DNA of 45,149 bases from Clostridiaceae bacterium (lineage in GTDB: Bacteria > Bacillota > Clostridia > Acetivibrionales > DULL01). Below are positions 3,717-19,000 of the stretch, piece after piece. How positions within the stretch are numbered: position 1 is the first letter of the stretch; every line of letters begins with the position of its first letter. A program made the position numbers and the translations under genes. The stretch covers positions 1 through 45,149 of the forward strand of contig DULL01000047.1 in the NCBI GenBank assembly GCA_012840395.1, in the 5' to 3' direction. The notes under the pieces are model-generated. The model made no database searches, was not told where the DNA came from, and saw only the letters and a list, made by a program, of their open reading frames with translations.

Positions 3717-4802
3717 TTAACCCAGTTCAAGTTCCCCTATTTTGCTGTAATATAATAAATCCTTCGCATGATTGCTTTTATCTAAGTACAGATCCGCATT
3801 GCTCCATATCATATAAAGCACATTTTTATAATTTATAATGTCATAATATACAATGCCATATTTATCTTTTATAAACAGGACTTCTTCATATTCCGATAAA
3901 TTCTGTCCATTTCCCAGGAGGATTTTCATGTTGTTCCTTCCGTTACGCACAAGATTGGGTTCTATGTCAACAAGTGAAATTGCCATGAGAAGCTTTCCTT
4001 TGTATTCAAGAAGTTGTGGCCTTGTTTCATTAAACTCAATACGCCCTGCCGGGGTAAAAGTCTTTCCCAAATCATTCGAAACATAGAAATTATCTCCTTT
4101 CGCCCCTCTTAAAAGCGTATACATCAAATCTTCGACTATGGCCGTCTGTGTTTCATACTTTGCGAGCTTGTCTATGTATCCCACAAATTCGTAATTTATA
4201 CAGTCTTTGGTGCGATAAATTACCGGTTGGCATAAAAATGAAGTTAGGCAGCCGTACCAATAACTGCCATGGCGGTAAATGCGGCTGGTATTTATTATAT
4301 GTTCATATACATCGTCAAATCTGTAACCGGTAAGACCCCGGGACTTCAGATATTCCTCGAATACCGTATCCTTAAGTTCTCTTGTTACGCCGTCATATGT
4401 GCAAAGAACAGGCTTTATCTCCGAAAATGTTTTTTTATGTATGTCAAAGTCAATATAGAAATACTGCGTTCCTCCGCTGATAAAAAAAATTCTTACAAAA
4501 TTCCCCATAAACACAATATTGCTGTCAATCATATCACGATAAACAATCCCGTTTTGTTCATCGCCATGCTTTAATACCACATAGTTTTCTGTCTTATGCG
4601 GCTGGCCTACAGGTATTACAGCAAGTGCAAGAACGTCCCTTGATTCTCCATAGTTCGTGCGTGAAGCGTGATATACTGTGTAAATCTTCCCATGATCGGG
4701 ATCAAAGCAGCTTATGGAGGCGGAGCTTGAAACGTAATTAACAGTATCGCTTATTGCAACTTTATTATTGAGTATATAATTTTCCCATTCTTTATTTGTC
4801 AT
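3717..4802 (-). CDS. Sialidase-fold (BNR repeat) protein, cytoplasmic
   Basis: This 361-aa protein has no signal peptide or membrane segment. It contains an Asp-box (NFYVSNDLGKTF, S-x-D-x-G-x-T-F) and several similar strand-turn motifs (HIINTSRIYRHGSYWYGCL, VIYRTKDCINYEFVG), as expected for a six-bladed sialidase-type beta-propeller. The same fold occurs in GH33, GH93 and many uncharacterised proteins, and I cannot assign a substrate. The start is the ATG at 4802, where AAGGTG lies at a suitable distance. That AGGTGA overlaps the stop codon of the decayed IS3 transposase, so the insertion sequence probably landed just upstream and then decayed. The aminotransferase gene follows on the same strand. 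Confidence 0.7.
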   Translation of the reverse strand: MTNKEWENYILNNKVAISDTVNYVSSSASISCFDPDHGKIYTVYHASRTNYGESRDVLALAVIPVGQPHKTENYVVLKHGDEQNGIVYRDMIDSNIVFMGNFVRIFFISGGTQYFYIDFDIHKKTFSEIKPVLCTYDGVTRELKDTVFEEYLKSRGLTGYRFDDVYEHIINTSRIYRHGSYWYGCLTSFLCQPVIYRTKDCINYEFVGYIDKLAKYETQTAIVEDLMYTLLRGAKGDNFYVSNDLGKTFTPAGRIEFNETRPQLLEYKGKLLMAISLVDIEPNLVRNGRNNMKILLGNGQNLSEYEEVLFIKDKYGIVYYDIINYKNVLYMIWSNADLYLDKSNHAKDLLYYSKIGELELG

Positions 4803-4930: not shown

Positions 4931-4936
4931 AAGTGC

Positions 4937-4989
4937 AAACACAAAAGGCCATGTATTCTTATTGTAAGAACGCACAGCCTTTTGTGTTT
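4937..4989 (-). terminator. Bidirectional intrinsic terminator downstream of glnN
   Basis: A perfect 13-bp inverted repeat (AAACACAAAAGGC at 4937-4949, GCCTTTTGTGTTT at 4977-4989) has an inner stem made of TTCTTA and TAAGAA. T-rich DNA follows on both strands, strongest on the plus strand. It starts about 50 bp after the glnN stop codon, so it probably ends the glnN transcript, and it separates glnN from the IS remnant. Confidence 0.75.
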
Positions 4990-5036
4990 TTTTCTTAGGA
5001 GGTTTGTAAATATTATATTTTATAAACCTTACAAAT

Positions 5037-7139
5037 TTATTCACTTACACTGTACAGAATTTCTGCATAGGTTGGAATTTTCCAATATTTGCTGCTGACA
5101 AGGGTTTCTAGTTCATCAACAACGAGCCTGAGTTCGCTCATTGCCATAAATACTTTTTCACGGTATGCCCTGGCAAGTTCCAGATTATCTTTGATTTCCT
5201 TGACTGCTATTGTTTGTTCAACAAGATGCTCCAACCTTTTTACTAAACATTCTGAAAGCCTGGATATTTTACTTAACAGTTCTTCTTCAGGTTTTGTAGT
5301 TATATTAGCATTAACTGCTTTTTTACGAATGATTAATTCAGCCAGTTCATTCTCGTAGCCGATGACTGCTGGAATAATCTGCTTATAAACCATGTCGATC
5401 ATTGTAAGAGCTTCAATATTAATGGTTTTAGAGTAATTCTCAAGCCAGATTTCATAACGTGAATGGATTTCATGTTCTGTTAACACATGATGGCGAATGA
5501 ACATTTCCACATTTTTAGGGTGAATAAATGTAGCTAAGGCTTCGGGTGTGGTTTTTAAATTTAATAAACCTCTTTCCTCAGCTTCCTTTACCCAGGAACT
5601 GTCATATCCGTTGCCGTTAAAAATAATGCGTTTATGATTCTTTATGGTTTTCTTGATTAGTTTATTTAAATCTGACCTAAAATCACTGCTTTTTTCAAGC
5701 TCATCAGCAAACTGTCTTAAAACTTCAGCTACAATGGTATTTAATACAATTATTGGACCTGCAGTGGAAAAAGATGAGCCTAGCATACGAAATTCAAACT
5801 TGTTTCCTGTGAATGCAAAGGGCGAAGTACGGTTACGGTCTGTTGTATCTTTCGGGAAATGAGGCAGTACTGTTGCTCCAATTTCCATAAGAGTTTTACT
5901 TTTACCTACGTATAGCGTATCGTTTTCCAGAGCATTTAGAATTTCAGTAAGTTCATCTCCCAAAAATATTGAAACAATGGCAGGTGGTGCTTCGTTTCCG
6001 CCAAGACGGTGGTCATTCCCGGCACTTGCAACCGAGACACGCAGGAGATCCTGATAATCGTCTACTGCTTTAATAACTGCTACAAGGAATAACAGGAACT
6101 GTGCATTTTCAAAAGGTGTATCTCCGGGCTCCAGCAAATTGATTCCTGTATCAGTGGACAAGGACCAGTTTATGTGTTTTCCGCTGCCGTTTATTCCTGC
6201 AAAAGGTTTTTCATGCAAGAGGCATGCTAAATTATGCTTTGCCGCGATGCTTTTCATAAGTTCCATAATTAGCTGATTATGGTCTGTTGCTATATTGGCC
6301 TCGGAATGGAAGGGCGCAAGTTCGTGCTGGGCGGGAGCTACTTCGTTATGCTCTGTTTTTGCAAATACCCCCAGCTTCCATAATTCCTCATCCAGTTCAC
6401 GCATAAATGCATTAACACGATTCTTTATCGCGCCAAAATAATGGTCTTCCATTTCCTGGCCTTTGGGCGGGCGGGCACCGAAAAGGGTCCTGCCGCAGAA
6501 CATAAGATCAGGCCTTTTTTGATAAATGTTCTTGTCAATCAAGAAATACTCTTGCTCGGGACCTACCAGAGAAACTACGCGCTTTGCATCTGTTATGTCA
6601 AATAAACGCAATATACGTAATGCCTGATTATTAAGTGCCTGCATGGAGCGTAAAAGGGGTGTCTTATTGTCAAGGGCTTCCCCGCTGTATGAACAAAAGG
6701 CTGTAGGTATGCACAGGGTATTATCTTTTATAAAGGCGTAAGAAGTCGGATCCCATGCTGTATATCCTCTAGCTTCAAATGTGGTACGGAGTCCTCCTGA
6801 CGGAAAGCTTGAAGCATCCGGTTCACCTTTTATCAGGGATTTACCTGAAAAATCTATGATCGCCTTTCCTTGCCCATCAGGGACAATAAAGCTGTCATGT
6901 TTTTCGGCGGTTATACCTGTCATAGGCTGGAACCAATGGGTAAAATGAGTAGCACCTTTTTCTATTGCCCATTCTTTCATGGCAGTTGCCACAACGTTAG
7001 CAACATCAAGCTCTAAGTGAGTACCGTTGGCAATAGTTTTCTTAAGTGCACTGTAAATATCCTTTGGCAGGCACTCTTTCATCGCTTCATCTCCAAATAC
7101 CATACTTCCGAAAATATCTTTAATATTACTGTTTGCCAA
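5037..7139 (-). CDS. glnN: Glutamine synthetase type III
   Basis: This cytoplasmic ATP-dependent enzyme makes glutamine from glutamate and ammonia. The 700-aa length is typical of the GSIII class and far longer than GSI. It shows the GSIII N-terminal domain, [16 protein letters not shown] (substrate-binding His loop), [30 protein letters not shown] and [29 protein letters not shown], followed by the long helical C-terminal extension. The start is a TTG with AGGAGGG upstream; no in-frame ATG fits. It is transcribed divergently from the glutamate synthase operon. Its leader carries a sigma-A-like promoter, a hexaloop hairpin and an overlapping terminator, so expression is probably set by antitermination. 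A second, type I, glutamine synthetase lies within the divergent operon. Confidence 0.95.
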
Positions 7140-7226
7140 ATTCTATCCCTCCTTGAAAAATAGTTATATCCTAAATTCTCAGCAGTAATCAATCAATTTG
7201 ATTAAAAAACTAAATAAATAAAAAAT

Positions 7227-7262
7227 AAAGGTGCTGAGGATAAATACATCCACAGCACCTTT
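7227..7262 (-). terminator. Intrinsic terminator in the glnN leader (attenuator)
   Basis: On the minus strand, AAAGGTGCTG and CAGCACCTTT form a 10-bp stem extended by GGAT/ATCC. It is followed at once by a T-rich run (ATTTTTTATTTATTT). It lies between the predicted promoter and the glnN start about 90 bases away, so it would stop most transcripts unless its 5' arm were sequestered. Confidence 0.8.
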
Positions 7263-7267
7263 GCTGT
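7252..7267 (-). promoter_or_regulatory. Candidate ANTAR-target hairpin in the glnN leader
   Basis: On the minus strand, ACAGC and GCTGT form a 5-bp stem around the hexaloop AAAGGT. The loop has A at position 1 and G at position 4, the hallmark of ANTAR-antiterminator targets. The 3' arm and loop (AAAGGTGCTG) are also the 5' arm of the terminator, so the two structures exclude each other. It starts only about five bases after the predicted transcription start. I found no second upstream hairpin (P1), which the described ANTAR sites have. Confidence 0.55.
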
Positions 7268-7278
7268 ATCATGTAAAA

Positions 7279-7307
7279 AGTTTAACACGATAAAAATCAT
7301 TTGTCAA
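7279..7307 (-). promoter_or_regulatory. Predicted sigma-A promoter of glnN
   Basis: On the minus strand, TTGACA (7307-7302) is separated by 17 bases from TAAACT (7284-7279). The -35 is a perfect consensus match; the -10 is partial. The predicted start near 7272 puts the attenuator hairpins at the very 5' end of the transcript. Confidence 0.6.
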
Positions 7308-7335
7308 TCATTTTATTAACTTTTTTTTCAAAAAG

Positions 7336-7361
7336 TGCAACTCAAAGAATAAATAGTTGCA
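7336..7361. promoter_or_regulatory. Dyad in the divergent glnN/GOGAT promoter region
   Basis: TGCAACT (7336-7342) and AGTTGCA (7355-7361) are a perfect 7-bp inverted repeat with a 12-bp AT-rich spacer, between the two divergent promoters. It could be a protein-binding operator; no regulator can be named. Confidence 0.3.
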
Positions 7362-7442
7362 AAATTTATAAAATTCAATCCACAAAAAGCCATATTCATT
7401 AGCGATTATGCAAGAACAACAATAAAAAATTTCACAAACCTA

Positions 7443-7471
7443 TTGACTAACTTAACTATTTATTGTATCAT
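7443..7471 (+). promoter_or_regulatory. Predicted sigma-A promoter of the glutamate synthase operon
   Basis: TTGACT (7443-7448), a 17-base spacer and TATCAT (7466-7471) form a good vegetative promoter. The start point would fall near 7479, exactly at the first base of the hexaloop hairpin. Confidence 0.7.
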
Positions 7472-7478
7472 ATCCATT

Positions 7479-7496
7479 ATGAACAAAGGCGTTCAT
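7479..7496 (+). promoter_or_regulatory. Candidate ANTAR-target hairpin in the GOGAT operon leader
   Basis: ATGAAC and GTTCAT form a perfect 6-bp stem around the hexaloop AAAGGC. As in the glnN leader, the loop has A1 and G4. Its 3' arm is part of the 5' arm of the following terminator. The AAAGG(C/T) loop recurs in the two divergent leaders although the stems differ, which argues for loop recognition by a shared factor. No P1 hairpin was found. Confidence 0.6.
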
Positions 7497-7537
7497 CATA
7501 CGTGTATGTGTTTATGCGTGGTGAACGTCTTGTTTTT
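7488..7537 (+). terminator. Intrinsic terminator in the GOGAT operon leader (attenuator)
   Basis: GGCGTTCATCA (7488-7498) pairs with TGGTGAACGTC (7519-7529), 11 bp with two wobble pairs. The stem can be extended by two A-T pairs at its base and is followed by TTGTTTTTAT. The 5' arm overlaps loop and 3' arm of the hexaloop hairpin, so the two folds compete. The GTG start of the first gene lies about 20 bases beyond. Confidence 0.8.
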
Positions 7538-7555
7538 ATATTGGGGGTATGAATT

Positions 7556-8653
7556 GTGAGAGAAGGTATGTTTAGAAATATATCAGGATGCGCAATATCC
7601 GGTATTTTTTCAAAAAGTGGCAAACGATTTTCCGGAAAATGTATTATTGATTCCATAGCTGTAATGCATGAACGTTCCAACGGACTTGGGGGAGGATTTA
7701 CAGCCTACGGCATTTATCCGGAGTATAAAGATTATTACGCTTTTCATATATTTTATGATAATAAATTTGCAAAAAAAGAATGCGAAGAATTTTTGGAGGA
7801 ACATTTTGATATTATAAATCTTTCAAAAATTCCTACAAGAAAAATTCCGGAAATTACAGATGAGCCGCTGATCTGGAGGTACTTTGTAGTTCCGTTGCCC
7901 ACAAAACTGGCAGACAGCCAGCTGGATGAAAAGGAGTTTGTAGTAAGGTGCGTATTCCGTATAAATACTTCTATTGAAGGTGCCTATGTCTTTTCTAGCG
8001 GGAAAAACATGGGTGTGTTTAAAGCTGTAGGATTTCCTGAAGATGTGGGACGATTTTATCGCCTTGAAGAATATGAGGGCTATTGCTTTATCGCCCACGG
8101 ACGGTACCCAACAAATACGCCCGGTTGGTGGGGAGGAGCTCATCCTTTCTCATTGCTTGATTATTCAGTAGTACACAATGGAGAAATATCTTCTTATGAT
8201 GCAAATCGCCGAGCAATTGAAATGTATGGGTACAAGTGCACTCTTCAGACCGATACCGAGGTAATTACCTATATTATAGACTACCTGCACAGAAAGAAGG
8301 GACTTACCCTCCCGGAAGTTTGCCTGGTAATGGCCGCACCGTTTTGGTCAACAATAGAGAGCAAACCACAAGAGGAACGGGAACAACTTGAATTTTTAAG
8401 AAATGCTTTCGAGTCTCAGTTGATTAACGGACCATTTTCTATCATCGTAGGTTTTGATGGTGGAATAATGGCGTTGAATGACAGATTGAAGCTTAGAAGC
8501 ATGGTAGTTGGCGAAAAAGATGACATGGTATATATTGCCAGTGAAGAAGCCGCTATCAGAATAATACAGAATGATCTGGACAGAGTATGGGCGCCAAAAG
8601 GCGGCGAAGGAGTTATTTTTACTCTGGAGAAAAAGGATTTATTACCGCAATAG
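7556..8653 (+). CDS. Glutamate synthase, glutamine amidotransferase domain protein (class II, GltS domain 1)
   Basis: This is the stand-alone glutaminase subunit of a split, archaeal-type glutamate synthase; it would release ammonia from glutamine for the FMN subunit. It shows the class II (Ntn) amidotransferase fold: a likely nucleophile Cys at residue 12 in ISGCAISGIF (so an 11-residue propeptide would need removal), HERSNGLGGGF, the glutamine-binding HGRYPTNTPGWWGGAHPF and VVHNGEISSYDAN, and LQTDTEVITYIID. The length of 365 aa suits the family. The GTG at 7556 is the best start with GGGGGT upstream; ATG at 7568 is an alternative that keeps the Cys. It is first in the operon, behind the attenuator. 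Confidence 0.9.
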   Translation: MREGMFRNISGCAISGIFSKSGKRFSGKCIIDSIAVMHERSNGLGGGFTAYGIYPEYKDYYAFHIFYDNKFAKKECEEFLEEHFDIINLSKIPTRKIPEITDEPLIWRYFVVPLPTKLADSQLDEKEFVVRCVFRINTSIEGAYVFSSGKNMGVFKAVGFPEDVGRFYRLEEYEGYCFIAHGRYPTNTPGWWGGAHPFSLLDYSVVHNGEISSYDANRRAIEMYGYKCTLQTDTEVITYIIDYLHRKKGLTLPEVCLVMAAPFWSTIESKPQEEREQLEFLRNAFESQLINGPFSIIVGFDGGIMALNDRLKLRSMVVGEKDDMVYIASEEAAIRIIQNDLDRVWAPKGGEGVIFTLEKKDLLPQ

Positions 8654-8746
8654 AGGGAAAAAATTACTATCTCATTAGGAGAAAGGAAAATATTATCTAA
8701 CTGGAAGAAGATGAGTTATTTATCACATTAGGGGAAGGGGAAAGTA

Positions 8747-10228
<1,482 letters not shown>

Positions 10229-10252
<24 letters not shown>

Positions 10253-10286
10253 TATATCAGGCATTAAGCGTGCAGAAGAATAATAC
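10229..10286 (+). repeat. Local direct duplication of the GltB-domain-2 3' end
   Basis: About 27 bp at 10229-10255 (GGTATTAAACATGCAGGAGA and the next few bases) recur with a few changes at 10260-10286, a 31-bp period. The first copy encodes the last residues and the stop; the second lies in the spacer. It looks like a diverged tandem duplication. Confidence 0.6.
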
Positions 10287-10315
10287 AAAATAACTTTGTG
10301 GTGGTGAGATTAGAA

Positions 10316-10750
10316 TTGAAACGCGTATACGTAAATGAAAAATGGTGTCTGGGATGTCACTTATGCGAATATTATTGTGCTTTTGCTTCAACCAATGAGA
10401 AAGATATGGCCAGAGCATTAAAAGATGTAATAATAAAGCCCAGAATAAAGGTTGAAGAAATGAATGGAATTAGTTTTGCAGTTTCATGCCGTCATTGTAA
10501 TGATCCCCTTTGTGTTAAAGGTTGTATAACAGGTGCCCTGTCCAAAGATAACGGGGTTGTCACAATAAACAAAGATAAATGTATTGGCTGTTATACCTGT
10601 ATATTGAGTTGCCCTTATGGTGCCGTTTCTCCTTCAGAGGACGGAGCAGTACTTAAGTGTGAACTTTGTATACAAACAAGCAGTGGTTCACCGCAATGTG
10701 TTCAAGGATGTCCAAACGGAGCAATTGTATTTGAAGAAAGGGGTGAGTGA
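10316..10750 (+). CDS. Polyferredoxin-type 4Fe-4S electron-transfer subunit of glutamate synthase
   Basis: This protein of about 144 aa has four cysteine groups: CLGCHLCEYYC, CRHCNDPLCVKGC, CIGCYTCILSCPYG and CELCIQTSSGSPQCVQGC. That is enough for four 4Fe-4S clusters, as in DmsB/HycB-type electron carriers. It sits between the FMN subunit and a flavin oxidoreductase, so it most likely passes electrons between them. I prefer the TTG at 10316 (GGTGG upstream; MKRVYVNEKW is the normal family N-terminus). An in-frame GTG at 10298 would add six residues but lacks a ribosome binding site. The gene ends one base before the next start. Confidence 0.85.
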   Translation: MKRVYVNEKWCLGCHLCEYYCAFASTNEKDMARALKDVIIKPRIKVEEMNGISFAVSCRHCNDPLCVKGCITGALSKDNGVVTINKDKCIGCYTCILSCPYGAVSPSEDGAVLKCELCIQTSSGSPQCVQGCPNGAIVFEERGE

Positions 10751-10751
10751 C

Positions 10752-12020
10752 TTGAAGTATGTGATTATTGGCAACTCAATAGCTGCTGTTGGCGCAGTGG
10801 AAGCCATACGAAAAAATGACAAACATGGTGAAATAGTAATTGCAGGTAATGAAAATCACCATGTGTATTCAAGACCTTTGATTTCTTACTTATTGATGGG
10901 TAAAACAGATGAAGAAAAAATGAAATATAGGAATGATAACTTTTACAAAGATAATAACTGTGAGTTAAAATTAAATAAAACTGCTGTAAAAATTGACATT
11001 CAGCAAAAACAAGTCGTTTTTGATGATGGCGATTGTGAAAGTTATGACAAGCTATTGATCGCTGTCGGATCTTCTCCATTCGTTCCTCCTGTCCGGGGAC
11101 TGGATAAGGTTAAAAATAAATTTACTTTTACGGCACTGGATGATGCAAAAGCACTGGAGAAGGTGCTGAATGAGAATTCAAGTCCTGCCTCAGATCCGAA
11201 GAAGGTATTGATTGTTGGAGCAGGCCTTATAGGTCTAAAGTGCGCCGAAGGAATTAGCAAAAAAAATGTGCAAATCCTATGTGTGGACTTAGCTCCTAAG
11301 GTGCTTTCAAGTATTTTGGATGACGAAGGCGCAGAAATAGTGAAAAAGCACTTAGAAGATCATCATATTAAGTTCTGCCTGAAACAGCAGATAGCAGAAT
11401 TTGAAGAAAATTATGCGGTTCTTGGTGATAATACGAAAGTTCCATTCGATGTACTTGTAATGGCTGCAGGGGTAAGACCGAATATTTCTTTAGTGAAGGA
11501 TATTGGAGGTAAAACAAACAGAGGTATTTTAATTGATGATAGATGCAGGACTTCTATTCCTGATATTTATGCAGCAGGTGATTGTTGTGAAAGTATGGAT
11601 GTTTCAACCGGGGAATCAAAGATAATGGCGCTGCTTCCTAATGCCTACATGCAGGCTGAATGTGCGGGAATGAATATGTCAGGAGTTGATTATTCGTATA
11701 ATAAGTACATTCCAATGAATGCAATTGGTTTGTTTGGGAAACACATCATAACCGCAGGAACTTATTCAGGAGATGTTTATTTTGAAACTGACGGAGATAA
11801 CTATAAAAAACTATTCTATTCAGACAATAAATTAAATGGATATATCTTGATTGGGAATGTTGAAAAGGCAGGTATATACACTTCCCTTATAAGAGAAAAA
11901 ACTCCTCTTGATTCGTTGGATTTTGAGCTTATTTGTAAAAAGCCCGGCCTTATGGCTTTTAGTAGGGAAACACGGGCTAAAAAGCTAGGAGGTGTTAGTA
12001 GTGAACTTGCGAGCTCATGA
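10752..12020 (+). CDS. FAD/NAD(P)-dependent pyridine nucleotide-disulfide oxidoreductase of glutamate synthase
   Basis: This 423-aa flavoprotein belongs to the NirB/NADH-oxidase-like family. It has an N-terminal FAD-binding strand (MKYVIIGNSIAAVGAVEA), LLIAVGSSPFVPP, an NAD(P)-binding GxGxxG (VLIVGAGLIGLKCAE) in the middle and the second FAD motif IYAAGDCCE. It probably supplies electrons from NAD(P)H to the Fe-S subunit and so to GOGAT. The TTG at 10752 has AAGGGG eight bases upstream; the open frame extends further upstream but there overlaps the Fe-S gene. Its 3' end overlaps the next gene by 20 bp, which implies translational coupling. Confidence 0.88.
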   Translation: MKYVIIGNSIAAVGAVEAIRKNDKHGEIVIAGNENHHVYSRPLISYLLMGKTDEEKMKYRNDNFYKDNNCELKLNKTAVKIDIQQKQVVFDDGDCESYDKLLIAVGSSPFVPPVRGLDKVKNKFTFTALDDAKALEKVLNENSSPASDPKKVLIVGAGLIGLKCAEGISKKNVQILCVDLAPKVLSSILDDEGAEIVKKHLEDHHIKFCLKQQIAEFEENYAVLGDNTKVPFDVLVMAAGVRPNISLVKDIGGKTNRGILIDDRCRTSIPDIYAAGDCCESMDVSTGESKIMALLPNAYMQAECAGMNMSGVDYSYNKYIPMNAIGLFGKHIITAGTYSGDVYFETDGDNYKKLFYSDNKLNGYILIGNVEKAGIYTSLIREKTPLDSLDFELICKKPGLMAFSRETRAKKLGGVSSELASS

Positions 12021-12717
12021 ACTAGGATACCGTAAGCTTAATGAAATAGTTCGCGGTACAAATGAGGATATTGTTATCAATGATTGTTATGGTCAACGTT
12101 TTATTGGTTGCGGAGCTTCTTCTAAAACCATTATTATTAACGGTACCCCGGGCAACGCACTTGGCGCGTATCTGGATGGTGCACTAATAATAGTAAACGG
12201 AAATGCGCAGGATGCTGTTGGCGACACTATGAATGACGGAAAAATAATTATTAACGGGAATGCGGGAGATACCTTGGGCTACGGGATGCGTGGAGGGAAA
12301 ATATTTGTAAAAGGCAATGCAGGTTACCGCACAGGTATACACATGAAAGAATATAAGGATAAAAAGCCTGTTATTGTAATAGGCGGAACAACAGGGAGTT
12401 TTTTAGGTGAATATCTTGCAGGAGGCCTTATTATAGTTTTGGGACTGAATTCTGAAGATTGTCCGGTTGGAAATTTTATTGGAGTAGGTATGCACGGAGG
12501 AGAAATAATTATAAGGAGCAGCAAACAGCCGGAAAATTTGCCCAAACAAGTATGCATGAATATTGCAAATGACTCGGACATAGATAAAATAAAAGATATC
12601 TTAATAGAATTTTCGGGTATATTTAATATATCTTTGGAAGAAATACTTGGAAAGACATTCTACAAACTTACACCTAATGCCAAAAGCCCATATAAGCAGC
12701 TATACACAGAGAACTGA
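12001..12717 (+). CDS. Glutamate synthase GXGXG (GltB domain 3) subunit
   Basis: This 238-aa protein is a right-handed parallel beta-helix built from repeated G-x-x-x-G turns (GNALGAYLDGALIIVNGNAQ, GDTLGYGMRGGKIFVKGNAG, GSFLGEYLAGGLIIVLG). It is the structural third domain of glutamate synthase, as in the separate archaeal subunits and the related FwdC proteins. The GTG at 12001 has a perfect AGGAGG eight bases upstream; the earlier GTG at 11992 overlaps that motif. It overlaps the oxidoreductase gene and completes the five-gene GOGAT set. A 158-bp gap with no visible terminator leads to glnA. Confidence 0.92.
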   Translation: MNLRAHELGYRKLNEIVRGTNEDIVINDCYGQRFIGCGASSKTIIINGTPGNALGAYLDGALIIVNGNAQDAVGDTMNDGKIIINGNAGDTLGYGMRGGKIFVKGNAGYRTGIHMKEYKDKKPVIVIGGTTGSFLGEYLAGGLIIVLGLNSEDCPVGNFIGVGMHGGEIIIRSSKQPENLPKQVCMNIANDSDIDKIKDILIEFSGIFNISLEEILGKTFYKLTPNAKSPYKQLYTEN

Positions 12718-12875
12718 CATTTAAAGTTGCATAAAAAGAGAACAAGACTATATAAACAGTAGTTAAAATAATTGACATCATCAGCAGTTGCAAGACACAT
12801 GAGCAGCTATGAGCTATAAAAATTAATTTATTGAGTAAGGTATATCCAGAAAAAAGAGATAGGGAGGGCCTGAAA

Positions 12876-14195
12876 ATGACCGCAAGCGTAAAAGAGGTTT
12901 TGGAGTTTGTCAGAGAGAATGACGTAAAATTCATCCGCCTTGTTTTTTGCGATTTGTTGGGCAGTCAAAAAAATATATCTATTATGCCGGATGAACTGCC
13001 TGAAGCCTTTGAACATGGCATTCCCTTTGATGCTCATGCTATCAGAGGTTTTACAGATATAACAAAATCGGATCTACTTTTATTTCCTGACCCTTCTACC
13101 ATATCAGTTTTACCCTGGCGCCCGCAGCAAGGTAGAGTAATCAGGTTTTATTGCAGTATTAAAAATCCTGATGGAAGCATGTTTTGGGGAGATACAAGAG
13201 GGATACTTAAATCGGTGGTGGAAAATGTAAGGCAGAAGGGATATTCATGCATGGTTGGGGCAGAATGTGAATTTTACCTTTTTAAAACTGATGAAAACGG
13301 AGATCCTACCACTGTTCCTTATGATAACGGAGGTTATTTGGATGTTTATCCTCTGGATAAAGGTGAAAACATTCGCCGGGAAATTTGCCTTTGTCTTGAG
13401 GAAATGGGAATCAAGCCTGAAACATCCCATCATGAGCAGGGACCAGGACAAAACGAAATTGATTTTAAGTTTTCAGATGCATTAAGCTGTGCAGACAACT
13501 TTATTACCTTTAAACAGGTGGTCAAGAGCATTGCTGCAAGAAATGGATTATTTGCTTCCTTTTCTCCAAAACCATTACCTGATAAATGTGGTAATGGGCT
13601 ACACATTAATTTGTCCCTGTCGCAAAACGGTTATAATGTGTTTGAACTGGTGGGGAAAGGCAATACGAATGCAGCGGAGAGTTTTATTGCAGGTGTGCTT
13701 GAAAAAACGCCTGAGATAACCCTGTTTTTAAATCCTTTGCCAAACTCTTACGAACGCTTGGGGGCTCTCGAGGCGCCAAAATATGTATCCTGGTCCAGAG
13801 GCAACCGTTCTCAGCTTGTTAGAATTCCTACAGCCAAGGGTGAAAGGATGCGTATGGAATTGAGATCGCCCGATCCTTCTACAAATCCCTATCTTGCCTT
13901 TGCTCTTGTAATAAGTGCAGGGTTTTACGGAATAGATAATAATTTGAGACTTCCTGAAAGTGTAAATGTGGATCTCTATAACGCTGACGAGAGCATAACC
14001 GGCAGGTTGACGCAACTGCCTCAAAATATGGATGAGGCTTTAAGGCTCGTCCAAAAATCAGACTTTGTAAGAAGTGTGTTAAATGCAGAGATAATTGACA
14101 AGTTCATTAATTTGAAGACTCAGGAAATGAAGAACTATAATTTGGCTTTCGATAAAAATAAATATTTTATTGATAATTATTTTAAAGTTATTTAA
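12876..14195 (+). CDS. glnA: Glutamine synthetase type I
   Basis: This 439-aa enzyme has the size and motifs of the short, Gram-positive GSI-alpha type: beta-grasp N-terminal domain, GAECEFYLF (metal Glu), GPGQNEIDFKF, GNGLHINLSLS (His loop), LNPLPNSYERLG, and RIPTAKGERMRMELRSPDPS near the active site. The adenylylation-site Tyr motif of longer GSI-beta enzymes was not seen. ATG at 12876 with GGGAGGG upstream is the start. It probably forms a GS-GOGAT cycle with the upstream GOGAT subunits and competes with divergent glnN. The gene immediately downstream encodes an ANTAR regulator, an order seen in other clostridia. Confidence 0.95.
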   Translation: MTASVKEVLEFVRENDVKFIRLVFCDLLGSQKNISIMPDELPEAFEHGIPFDAHAIRGFTDITKSDLLLFPDPSTISVLPWRPQQGRVIRFYCSIKNPDGSMFWGDTRGILKSVVENVRQKGYSCMVGAECEFYLFKTDENGDPTTVPYDNGGYLDVYPLDKGENIRREICLCLEEMGIKPETSHHEQGPGQNEIDFKFSDALSCADNFITFKQVVKSIAARNGLFASFSPKPLPDKCGNGLHINLSLSQNGYNVFELVGKGNTNAAESFIAGVLEKTPEITLFLNPLPNSYERLGALEAPKYVSWSRGNRSQLVRIPTAKGERMRMELRSPDPSTNPYLAFALVISAGFYGIDNNLRLPESVNVDLYNADESITGRLTQLPQNMDEALRLVQKSDFVRSVLNAEIIDKFINLKTQEMKNYNLAFDKNKYFIDNYFKVI

Positions 14196-14342: not shown

Positions 14343-14912
14343 ATGGACAGTGCGCTTATAATATCTTATTCGGAGAAAAGTGTCACTTATTTGGCTGAAA
14401 TTCTGGCAGAGGCTTCTGTGACAAATATTACCACAGCTTCCAATGCTGGTGAAGCAAGACGGATTTTGATAGAAAAGGACTTTGACTTATGTATTATAAA
14501 TGCTCCTCTTCCTGATGAGTTTGGAGAAAGTCTTGCCTGCAATATAGCTGCAAAAGAATCCAGCCAGGTGATTTTAATTGTAAAGTCTGAATTGTACGAT
14601 GAAATTTCAGATAGAGTAGAGGATTATGGGGTAATTACCATAGCAAAACCCATTAACAAATCCTTATTATGGAATGCAATAAAGATAGCTTCGGCAGCCC
14701 ATAAGAAAATTAAAACCATAGAAGATGAAAAGAAAAAGCTGATTCAAAAAATTGAAGATATAAGAATCATTGACAGAGCCAAATGCATTCTAATTTCCCA
14801 TCTTTCCATAACAGAACCGGAAGCACACAGATATATTGAAAAGCAGGCTATGGATATGAGGATGACAAGAAGAAAAATAGCTGAGGAGATATTAAAAATA
14901 TATGAAAACTGA
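14343..14912 (+). CDS. ANTAR-domain antiterminator with degenerate receiver (NitR-like)
   Basis: This 189-aa two-domain protein has a CheY-like N-terminal half (1-120), a coiled-coil linker (KKIKTIEDEKKKLIQKIED) and a C-terminal ANTAR RNA-binding domain (RAKCILISHLSITEPEAHRYI...MTRRKIAEEIL). ANTAR proteins such as AmiR, NasR, EutV and the clostridial NitR bind leader hairpins with A1/G4 hexaloops and prevent terminator formation. Here the phosphoacceptor Asp is replaced by Asn53 (DLCIINAPLP), and the acidic pair after the first strand is missing (ALIISYSEKS), so it is probably controlled by a partner or ligand. Candidate targets are the two attenuated leaders at 7227-7267 and 7479-7537, which would make it autoregulatory. 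No histidine kinase is adjacent. Confidence 0.9.
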   Translation: MDSALIISYSEKSVTYLAEILAEASVTNITTASNAGEARRILIEKDFDLCIINAPLPDEFGESLACNIAAKESSQVILIVKSELYDEISDRVEDYGVITIAKPINKSLLWNAIKIASAAHKKIKTIEDEKKKLIQKIEDIRIIDRAKCILISHLSITEPEAHRYIEKQAMDMRMTRRKIAEEILKIYEN

Positions 14913-16086: not shown

Positions 16087-19000
16087 AAGTATTAAAAAAG
16101 TTCTTCTAATTGGTTCGGGACCAATTGTAATCGGTCAGGCTGCTGAATTCGATTATGCAGGAACCCAGGCCTGCCGGATGCTTAAAGAAGATGGAATTGA
16201 AGTAATTCTTGTTAATTCCAATCCTGCTACCATAATGACCGATAGTTCCATGGCAGACAGGATTTATGTGGAACCTCTCACCCTTACAACTGTAAAAAGG
16301 ATTATAGAAAAAGAACGTCCCGATAGCATTCTGTCCGGATTTGGCGGGCAAACGGGACTTACCCTCAGCATGCAGCTTGCCAAAGAAGGCTTTCTGGATA
16401 AAATGAATGTCCGTCTCCTTGGTTCTTCACTGGAAGCTATAGAAAAGACAGAGGACAGGCAAATTTTTAAAGAGACAATGGAACAAACAGGGCAGCCGGT
16501 TATTCCTTCTGTTATTGCAAGGGATGTGGATACAGCCCTGAAATTTGCAGAAGAAAACGGATATCCTGTAATTATCCGCCCGTCGTTTACTCTTGGAGGA
16601 AGCGGCGGAGGTATAGCAAATAATAAAGATGAGCTTCTGGAAATAGCGCGAAATGGGCTTAGTCTTTCTCCCATCCATCAGATACTGGTGGAGCAGTCTG
16701 TGGCTGGCTGGAAAGAAATTGAATTTGAGGTAATGAGGGATAGAAACGGAAATACCATAGCAGTCTGTTCTATGGAAAACTTTGATCCTGTAGGTATACA
16801 TACAGGAGACAGTATCGTAATTGCACCTGCCGTAACGCTTGCTGACAAGGAATACCAGATGTTAAGGAAGGCTGCACTGGATATTATAGAAGCGCTGGGA
16901 GTTGAAGGAGGCTGCAACTGCCAGTTCGCTTTAGACCCATATTCCATGGAATACAGGGTTATAGAGGTAAATCCCCGGGTGTCCCGTTCATCCGCTCTTG
17001 CTTCAAAAGCAACAGGATATCCTATTGCAAAGGTAGCAACAAAGATTGCTTTAGGCTATACGCTGGACGAAATTCCTAATGCTGTGACAGGAAAAACTTT
17101 TGCCGCTTTTGAGCCTACCCTTGATTATGTGGCAGTAAAACTTCCAAGATGGCCTTTTGATAAATTTGTTTATGCGAAAAAAGTATTAGGGACCCAGATG
17201 CAGTCTACAGGCGAAGTTATGGCTATATCTGATACTTTTGAGGATGCTATCTTAAAAGCCGTGAGAGGTGCGGAAATAGGCTTAAAGGACCTTAATCTGC
17301 CAAAGATAAAAACACTGTCTGACAAAAAAATCCGTGACCTTCTGCACGATGCTACCGACGAGAGGCTGTTTGTGGTATACGAGGCTATAAAGAGGGGTTT
17401 TTCTATAGATGAAATTCATTCGATAACAAAAATAGACAGATGGTTTTTATATAAGCTTGCAAATATTGATGAGAATAACAAGAACAAACTGCTAACCTAC
17501 AAAATGGTTGACACCTGCGGAGGAGAATTTGAAGCAAAAACACCTTATTTTTATTCCATAAGAGGAAATGGAGAAAATGAAGCATTGCCATTTATACAAA
17601 AGAACGCGAAAAAACGGATTGTTGTACTGGGCAGCGGACCTATTCGTATAGGACAGGGTATTGAATTTGATTATGCCTGTGTTCACTGTGTAAAAGCCTT
17701 AAAAAAGATGGGATATGAGGTTATAGTCATTAACAACAATCCCGAAACTGTTTCTACTGATTTTGATACAGCTGACAGGTTGTACTTTGAGCCACTTTAT
17801 GTTGATGACGTAATGAGCATAATTGAAATGGAAAAGCCGGTTGGAGTTATTGTTGCATTTGGCGGAGGGACGGCAATTAAACTTACTAAAAAATTATATC
17901 AAAAAGGTGTAAATATTATTGGAACTTCTGCAGACAGCATTGATATCTGTGAAGACAGGGAGCGCTTTGATGCTTTATTGGAAAGGCTTGGCATAGACCG
18001 CCCTAAAGGATATTGTGTAATGACAAAGGAAGAAGCGTTTATTGCTGCGGAAAATCTGGGATATCCCGTGTTGATGAGGCCTTCCTACGTGCTGGGTGGG
18101 CAAAACATGATCATTGCATTTTCTTCTTCAGATATAGAGGAATATATGGATATTATTCTACGATATGAGCAAGAGAATCCTGTTTTGATTGACAAATATC
18201 TGAGCGGAAGAGAAATTGAAGTAGATGCTGTTTGCGACGGGCAGGATGTATTGATACCGGGAATTATGGAACATATTGAACGTACAGGGATTCATTCGGG
18301 TGACAGTATAGCCGTTTATCCTGCCATTCATATTGAAGATCAAATGGCTCAGAAGATCTTGGAATGTACTGAAAAAATATGCTTTGCCCTGAATTCAAAA
18401 GGGCTTGTGAATATACAGTATATTGTAACAGGAGATAAGTTATATGTAATCGAAGTCAATCCGCGGGCTTCCCGAACAGTGCCATATTTAAGTAAAGTTA
18501 CAGGTATTCCTATCTGTGAGCTAGCCACAAAAGTCAGTATGGATGAGCGGCTTTCAAGTTTAGGATATGGAAGAGGAATATACAAGACTCCCCCTTATGT
18601 AGCAGTAAAAGTTCCGGTGTTTTCTTTTGAAAAGCTTACAGACGTGGATACACATTTAGGTCCGGAAATGAAATCCACGGGTGAAGTACTTGGCATAGGA
18701 AAAACCTTGAATGAAGCGCTGTATAAAGGACTGGTTGCTGCAGGATATAAAATGAGGAAAAAAGGTGGCGTACTGATAACAGTCCGTGACAGTGACAAGG
18801 GTGAAATTGCAGATGTGGCAAGAAAATTCTGCAATCTCGGATTCAGTCTCTATGCGACAAAAGGCACGGGAAAGGTTTTATCTGCAGCAGGACTTTCCTG
18901 CAAAACTATCAATAAAATACATGAAAGTGTTTTAAATAACTCAATGACAATTTTAGAGAGTGGCATGATTTCCTATGTTATTTCAACCTCAGAGAGAGGA

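Follow-up and report, generated by a model that had tools for sequence, protein, structure and literature searches.

The window, that is, the whole stretch of 45,149 nt from a Clostridiaceae bacterium analysed here, contains two divergent sets of nitrogen genes (Table 1). On the reverse strand lies glnN, encoding a type III glutamine synthetase, and on the forward strand the five genes of a GOGAT (glutamate synthase) cluster are followed by glnA, encoding a type I glutamine synthetase, and by the gene of a 189-residue ANTAR protein; carA, carB and then nadE lie 3' of the latter. No clear terminator was found within the cluster from the GOGAT start to the ANTAR gene, and the proposal that both glutamine synthetases, GOGAT and the ANTAR gene are under common control is consistent with this. 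Downstream of glnN, a 361-residue ORF at 3717-4802 (reverse strand) had no Pfam or NCBIfam match.

Table 1. Genes and predicted leader elements of the glnN–GOGAT–glnA–ANTAR locus
Feature	Position	Strand	Description
glnN	5037..7139	-	Type III glutamine synthetase, controlled gene; PF12437, PF18318
Intergenic region	7140-7555		Between glnN and the GOGAT cluster
glnN leader terminator	7227..7262	-	Intrinsic; AAAGGTGCTG...CAGCACCTTT plus U tract 7226-7217; -21.9 kcal/mol
glnN leader antiterminator hairpin (putative)	7252..7267	-	ACAGC-[AAAGGT]-GCTGT; hairpin scan, covariation
glnN promoter (predicted, sigma-A)	7279..7307	-	TTGACA-17-TAAACT; TTGACA 7307-7302, TAAACT 7284-7279
GOGAT operon promoter (predicted, sigma-A)	7443..7471	+	TTGACT-17-TATCAT; -10 ends at 7471
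GOGAT leader antiterminator hairpin (putative)	7479-7496	+	ATGAAC-[AAAGGC]-GTTCAT; hairpin scan, covariation
GOGAT leader terminator	7486-7531	+	Intrinsic; AAGGCGTTCA...TGAACGTCTT plus GTTTTT; -21.4 kcal/mol
GOGAT genes, all five	7556..12717	+
Class-II amidotransferase	7556-8653	+	GOGAT cluster
Glutamate synthase core	8747-10252	+
4Fe-4S protein	10298-10750	+	GOGAT cluster
Pyridine-nucleotide oxidoreductase	10617-12020	+	GOGAT cluster
GXGXG domain gene	11992-12717	+
glnA	12831..14195	+	Type I glutamine synthetase, final gene ahead of the ANTAR gene; PF00120/PF03951
ANTAR regulator	14343..14912	+	189 aa, presumed RNA-binding partner; PF03861 1.9e-16

Each of the two divergent leaders begins with a predicted promoter followed closely by a perfect hairpin of 5-6 bp with a hexaloop, AAAGGT for glnN and AAAGGC for the GOGAT–glnA–ANTAR operon. 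The hairpin starts 11 nt (glnN) or 7 nt (GOGAT) past the end of the predicted -10 box, and the predicted glnN start is the A of a CAT at about 7270-7272, a CA initiator pattern that is also seen in relatives. On both strands the hairpin loop and 3' arm double as the 5' arm of an intrinsic terminator, whose tail in the GOGAT leader is GTTTTTAT. Computed folds gave about -22 kcal/mol for the terminators and -6.1 and -4.3 kcal/mol for the hairpins, suggesting that the terminator would prevail when unaided; it was the minimum-energy fold in both leaders, and leader folding was well below that of shuffles (z of -5.8 for glnN and -5.4 for GOGAT). When a site was defined as an A1/G4 hexaloop hairpin with at least five Watson–Crick pairs that overlaps a terminator whose energy is -15 kcal/mol or lower, the window contained two sites compared with a mean of 0.017 in 60 dinucleotide-shuffled versions of it, and among 2000 shuffles of the intergenic region one site arose once and two sites never. 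Rfam gave no matches across the window, with sub-threshold noise only at 7100-7600. Thus the arrangement given in the preliminary description was confirmed on both strands, including its point that the stems differ (CAGC...GCTG for glnN and GAAC...GTTC for GOGAT) while the AAAGG of the loop is kept.

To follow these elements in relatives, 80 loci retrieved via alignment of the ANTAR protein were scanned for A1/G4 hexaloop hairpins overlapping terminators. The commonest loops were AAAGGC and AAAGGT, and the matches preceded glnN, the GOGAT amidotransferase gene, glnA, carA and nadE. AAAGGC also ranked first in a scan of 61 glnN and GOGAT leaders that allowed any loop of 4-9 bases. In 50 aligned elements, A1, A2, G4, G5 and the closing C:G pair were invariant and loop position 3 varied, with the outer stem varying between element classes in a paired fashion. 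Compensatory changes, with both sides of pairs altered, backed both of the mutually exclusive folds, hairpin and terminator, in the glnN leaders and in the GOGAT-type leaders alike, the pairing percentages being inflated because the rows of the alignments (A2-A4) were picked for having both structures.

A very stable palindrome was also observed right after the glnN stop at 4936-4990 (reverse strand; z -8.5), with an AAAGGC hexaloop as one folding option, and CAC-AANGGC-GTG hairpins with terminators lie 3' of glnN in three other loci (L050, L059 and L109). The 3' end of glnN may thus also bear an ANTAR-type site. The candidate at 4982 (reverse strand) was not counted as a third attenuator, as its full stem includes the 5' arm of the hairpin, so that the two folds are not mutually exclusive, and its U tract is poor.

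Related genomes were searched with a covariance model (R1) of promoter plus hairpin, leaving the terminator out, and the regulon scan was made with R1 alone. The promoter–hairpin unit was recovered, with matches of at least 43.5 bits in 20 of 100 genomes, and an overlapping terminator was present in 38 of the 47 inspected matches from relatives compared with 7% at random positions. In the genome of the window only the two leader sites reached E <1e-5; the next-best matches had E values of at least 0.07, and none of them had an overlapping terminator. Genes following R1 matches were glnN, GOGAT, glnA, asnA, amtB with PII, NADP-gdhA, nadE, purA, purC and pyrG, to which the scan of ANTAR loci adds carA. 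Weak matches near 41 bits include LexA-like boxes (L166 and L167) as false hits. Judged from the genes that they precede, the predicted targets form a coherent ammonia/glutamine regulon in many Clostridia. We also considered whether a protein dimer has to bridge the two divergent transcripts, but rejected this as a requirement because lone units precede carA, amtB, gdhA and other genes.

Next, we asked how the unit relates to the ANTAR protein. The genome encodes a single ANTAR protein (PF03861; its C-terminal domain scores 60.0 bits against a cut-off of 27.3), and its gene lies within the operon that it would control, in agreement with the earlier proposal that the protein acts on its own gene. 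In the PDB its relatives are 1s8n, 6wsh and 1qo0. The ANTAR gene has glnA immediately 5' in 71 of 75 loci. Units of at least 43.5 bits were present in 17 of 30 genomes with a glnA-linked ANTAR gene compared with three of 70 others (Fisher p 1.3e-8, a value that overstates independence because the genomes are related), leaving 13 of the 30 in which a strong match was absent. Among ANTAR-free genomes with glnN, a unit was found in two of 12 (G095 and G099); the G095 contig stops partway through the GOGAT cluster and the G099 contig short of it, so that the ANTAR gene may be missing through an assembly gap. An exception to the co-occurrence is provided by G005 and G031, which have strong units and, as their sole ANTAR protein, a different REC-ANTAR type encoded directly 5' of prfB (loci L207 and L209 respectively). 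One locus (L043) has two glnA-type ANTAR paralogues, at 10001-10564 and 16878-17444, the second of which adjoins glnA. The ANTAR gene is also present in termite-gut metagenome bins from other phyla, in which either horizontal transfer or bin contamination could account for it; a promoter–hairpin–terminator unit precedes the GXGXG gene in the Treponema bins L067, L073 and L082, and the bins outside both Clostridia and Treponema are L070, L084, L086 and L107.

The hairpins share several properties with the dual-hexaloop antiterminators eut/EutV, nasF/NasR and amiE/AmiR, namely an A1/G4 hexaloop, a small stem and a terminal C:G pair, together with overlap between the loop/3' arm and the terminator, an ANTAR protein in the genome and a link to nitrogen genes (PMC3369931). 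EutV depends on A1/G4 hexaloops (PMC3369931), selection with NasR yields a terminal C:G pair plus A1 and G4 (PMC7496416), and the dual-hairpin targets predicted by Ramesh et al. in 2012 include glutamate and glutamine synthases (PMC3369931). We infer from these loop rules and from the co-occurrence with glnA-linked ANTAR genes that the ANTAR protein binds to the loops described here, and the two leaders are probably ANTAR-controlled transcription attenuators with a single hexaloop each. A related suggestion exists for Clostridium thermocellum, in which the GS–GOGAT cluster Clo1313_2030-2036 has genes for an amidotransferase, a glutamate synthase and a ferredoxin-like protein next to an ANTAR gene (PMC4676874). 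According to the accessible part of that account, these genes shift expression together, an antiterminator role was proposed for the ANTAR protein, and NitR of solventogenic clostridia is cited; that part describes no RNA target or leader hairpin.

Could the leaders be attenuators that work independently of an ANTAR protein, for example bistable structures set by transcription speed, by another RNA-binding protein or by a ligand, with the AAAGGC loop kept only as the A-tract/GC base of the terminator stem? The loop AAAGGC forms that base by pairing with GCCTTT, a constraint that would by itself favour A- and G-rich loops, and the units of G005 and G031 occur without a glnA-type ANTAR protein. 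However, terminator pairing leaves unexplained the perfect 5' arm, the fixed loop length of 6 nt and the invariant closing C:G pair, and also why loop position 3 varies when positions 1, 2, 4 and 5 are fixed. Moreover, the unit was clear in just two of 14 glnN copies from ANTAR-free genomes, and the regulon theme and the co-occurrence with the ANTAR gene also speak against this explanation, which we consider unlikely. The position of the hairpins at the extreme 5' end could instead mean that they chiefly stabilize the mRNA end, or that they serve as DNA operators, since GAAC...GTTC resembles an operator palindrome and LexA-like boxes were among the weak matches. But the half-sites here are 6 nt apart rather than the 4 nt of LexA-type boxes (GAAC N4 GTTC), the glnN class has a different stem around the same loop, and stabilization does not need the covariation-supported overlap with the terminator; a stabilizer or operator is therefore very improbable as the main role of the hairpins.

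The third alternative concerns the number of hairpins. All characterized antiterminators of this kind use two linked hairpins, P1 and P2 (PMC3369931 and PMC8934654), both of which are obligatory for EutV according to Ramesh et al. and Walshe et al. (PMC3369931 and PMC8934654). EutV requires P1 in vivo and binds a lone hairpin weakly in vitro, at 3-6 µM (PMC8934654); NasR binding to a single hairpin is similarly weak, at about 12 µM (PMC7496416). As the start sites of the present leaders are predictions, a classical target with P1 transcribed from a start further upstream has to be considered. No A1/G4 hexaloop hairpin of at least 4 bp was found within 70 nt upstream of either hairpin in the window, and in relatives upstream A1/G4 hexaloops were near the level of shuffles (seven of 72 compared with 3.95 expected, five of 50 compared with 2.9, and one of 32 compared with 1.7). 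A second hexaloop 3' of the first gave no signal either (one of 50 compared with 4.7, and six of 32 compared with 3.5). The sensitivity of P1 detection is uncalibrated, as a scan of the eut regions of relatives, made as a positive control, found no eut attenuator, so the absence of P1 rests mainly on promoter spacing. Of 62 elements, 50 have a -10 box that ends 6-12 nt 5' of the hairpin, and a C-A step occurs at the expected +1 position in the leaders of relatives, placing the predicted start about 0-6 nt from the hairpin. A P1 with a stem of at least 3 bp, a hexaloop and a linker could thus not fit into the transcript, which bears out the earlier remark that the promoter leaves no room for it. 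A P1 inside the promoter region was rejected on the same grounds, being at shuffle level and too near the predicted start. Since most relatives have strong -35 and -10 boxes right next to the hairpin, and spacing and CA initiator are conserved, a classical dual-hairpin target is improbable, slightly more so than an ANTAR-independent attenuator.

The leaders therefore show three features of the dual-hairpin definition of Ramesh et al. (an A1/G4 hexaloop, a terminator overlapping the last hairpin and an ANTAR protein in the genome), but not the two linked hairpins, as P1 was absent from the window and not above shuffles in relatives; they are not classed as members and resemble an ANTAR target reduced to its P2 half. 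Two properties set them apart from the dual-hexaloop antiterminators, a lone hairpin at the 5' extremity right past the -10 box and a regulator that is a pseudo-receiver ANTAR protein encoded beside glnA. From conservation and promoter spacing, we regard it as quite probable that they are a conserved, 5'-terminal variant of ANTAR antiterminators with one hexaloop. The minimal EutV binding motif proposed by Walshe et al. in 2022 from the EutV–RNA structure is one hexaloop, and they asked how widely single ones serve (PMC8934654). The present elements are alike in that the unit predicted to be bound is one hexaloop; however, Walshe et al. expected such sites only where the transcribing polymerase sets no time limit (PMC8934654), whereas here the lone hexaloops overlap terminators in leaders.

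The ANTAR protein itself also differs from EutV. Its receiver is degenerate, with Asn53 at the position of the phospho-acceptor aspartate (Asn in 16 of 19 aligned relatives), and it thus lacks the residue that marks phosphorylation-controlled REC-ANTAR proteins of the EutV type. Reading a pairwise alignment, we found the EutV RNA contacts Arg142, Tyr164, Arg168, Asn173 and Arg177 replaced by Ile, His, Glu, Asp and Thr respectively, with the residues at EutV positions Lys149, Glu160, Met172 and Arg175 retained. His162, Glu166 and Asp171, which are fixed in the subfamily, align with the RNA-contacting Tyr164, Arg168 and Asn173. The missing aspartate makes control by a partner protein likelier than control by a kinase, as with AmiR, a non-phosphorylatable pseudo-receiver ANTAR protein controlled by its partner AmiC (PMC8934654 and PMC3369936). 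In the present system the partner is a guess from gene adjacency, with GlnA as the leading candidate by analogy with AmiC–AmiR.

Taken together, these observations suggest the following mechanism. By default, RNA polymerase would start a few bases before the hairpin, make about 50-60 nt and halt at the terminator. On emerging, the first hairpin would be gripped at its hexaloop by an active ANTAR protein and kept closed, so that the loop and 3' arm are held in the hairpin and unavailable to the terminator, allowing read-through into glnN on one strand and GOGAT–glnA–ANTAR on the other. As the ANTAR gene sits in the second operon, positive autoregulation is proposed. The likely signal would be low ammonia or glutamine status, reaching the non-phosphorylatable receiver via a protein partner rather than a kinase. 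A bolder version, in which the single 5'-end hexaloop suffices throughout a widespread class of ANTAR antiterminators serving an entire ammonia/glutamine regulon and the pseudo-receiver ANTAR protein is set by direct contact with GlnA, making the enzyme the nitrogen sensor, is possible but tentative.

A single-hairpin form would be a simpler version of the known two-hairpin RNA switch. The prevailing view is that ANTAR antitermination requires a pair of hairpins, and structural studies of EutV settled neither the reason for this nor whether single hexaloops function in transcription at all. A natural, repeated single-hairpin design would provide a clean test of the purpose of P1, and would give a large group of anaerobic Clostridia a nitrogen-control regulon together with a model for target searches.
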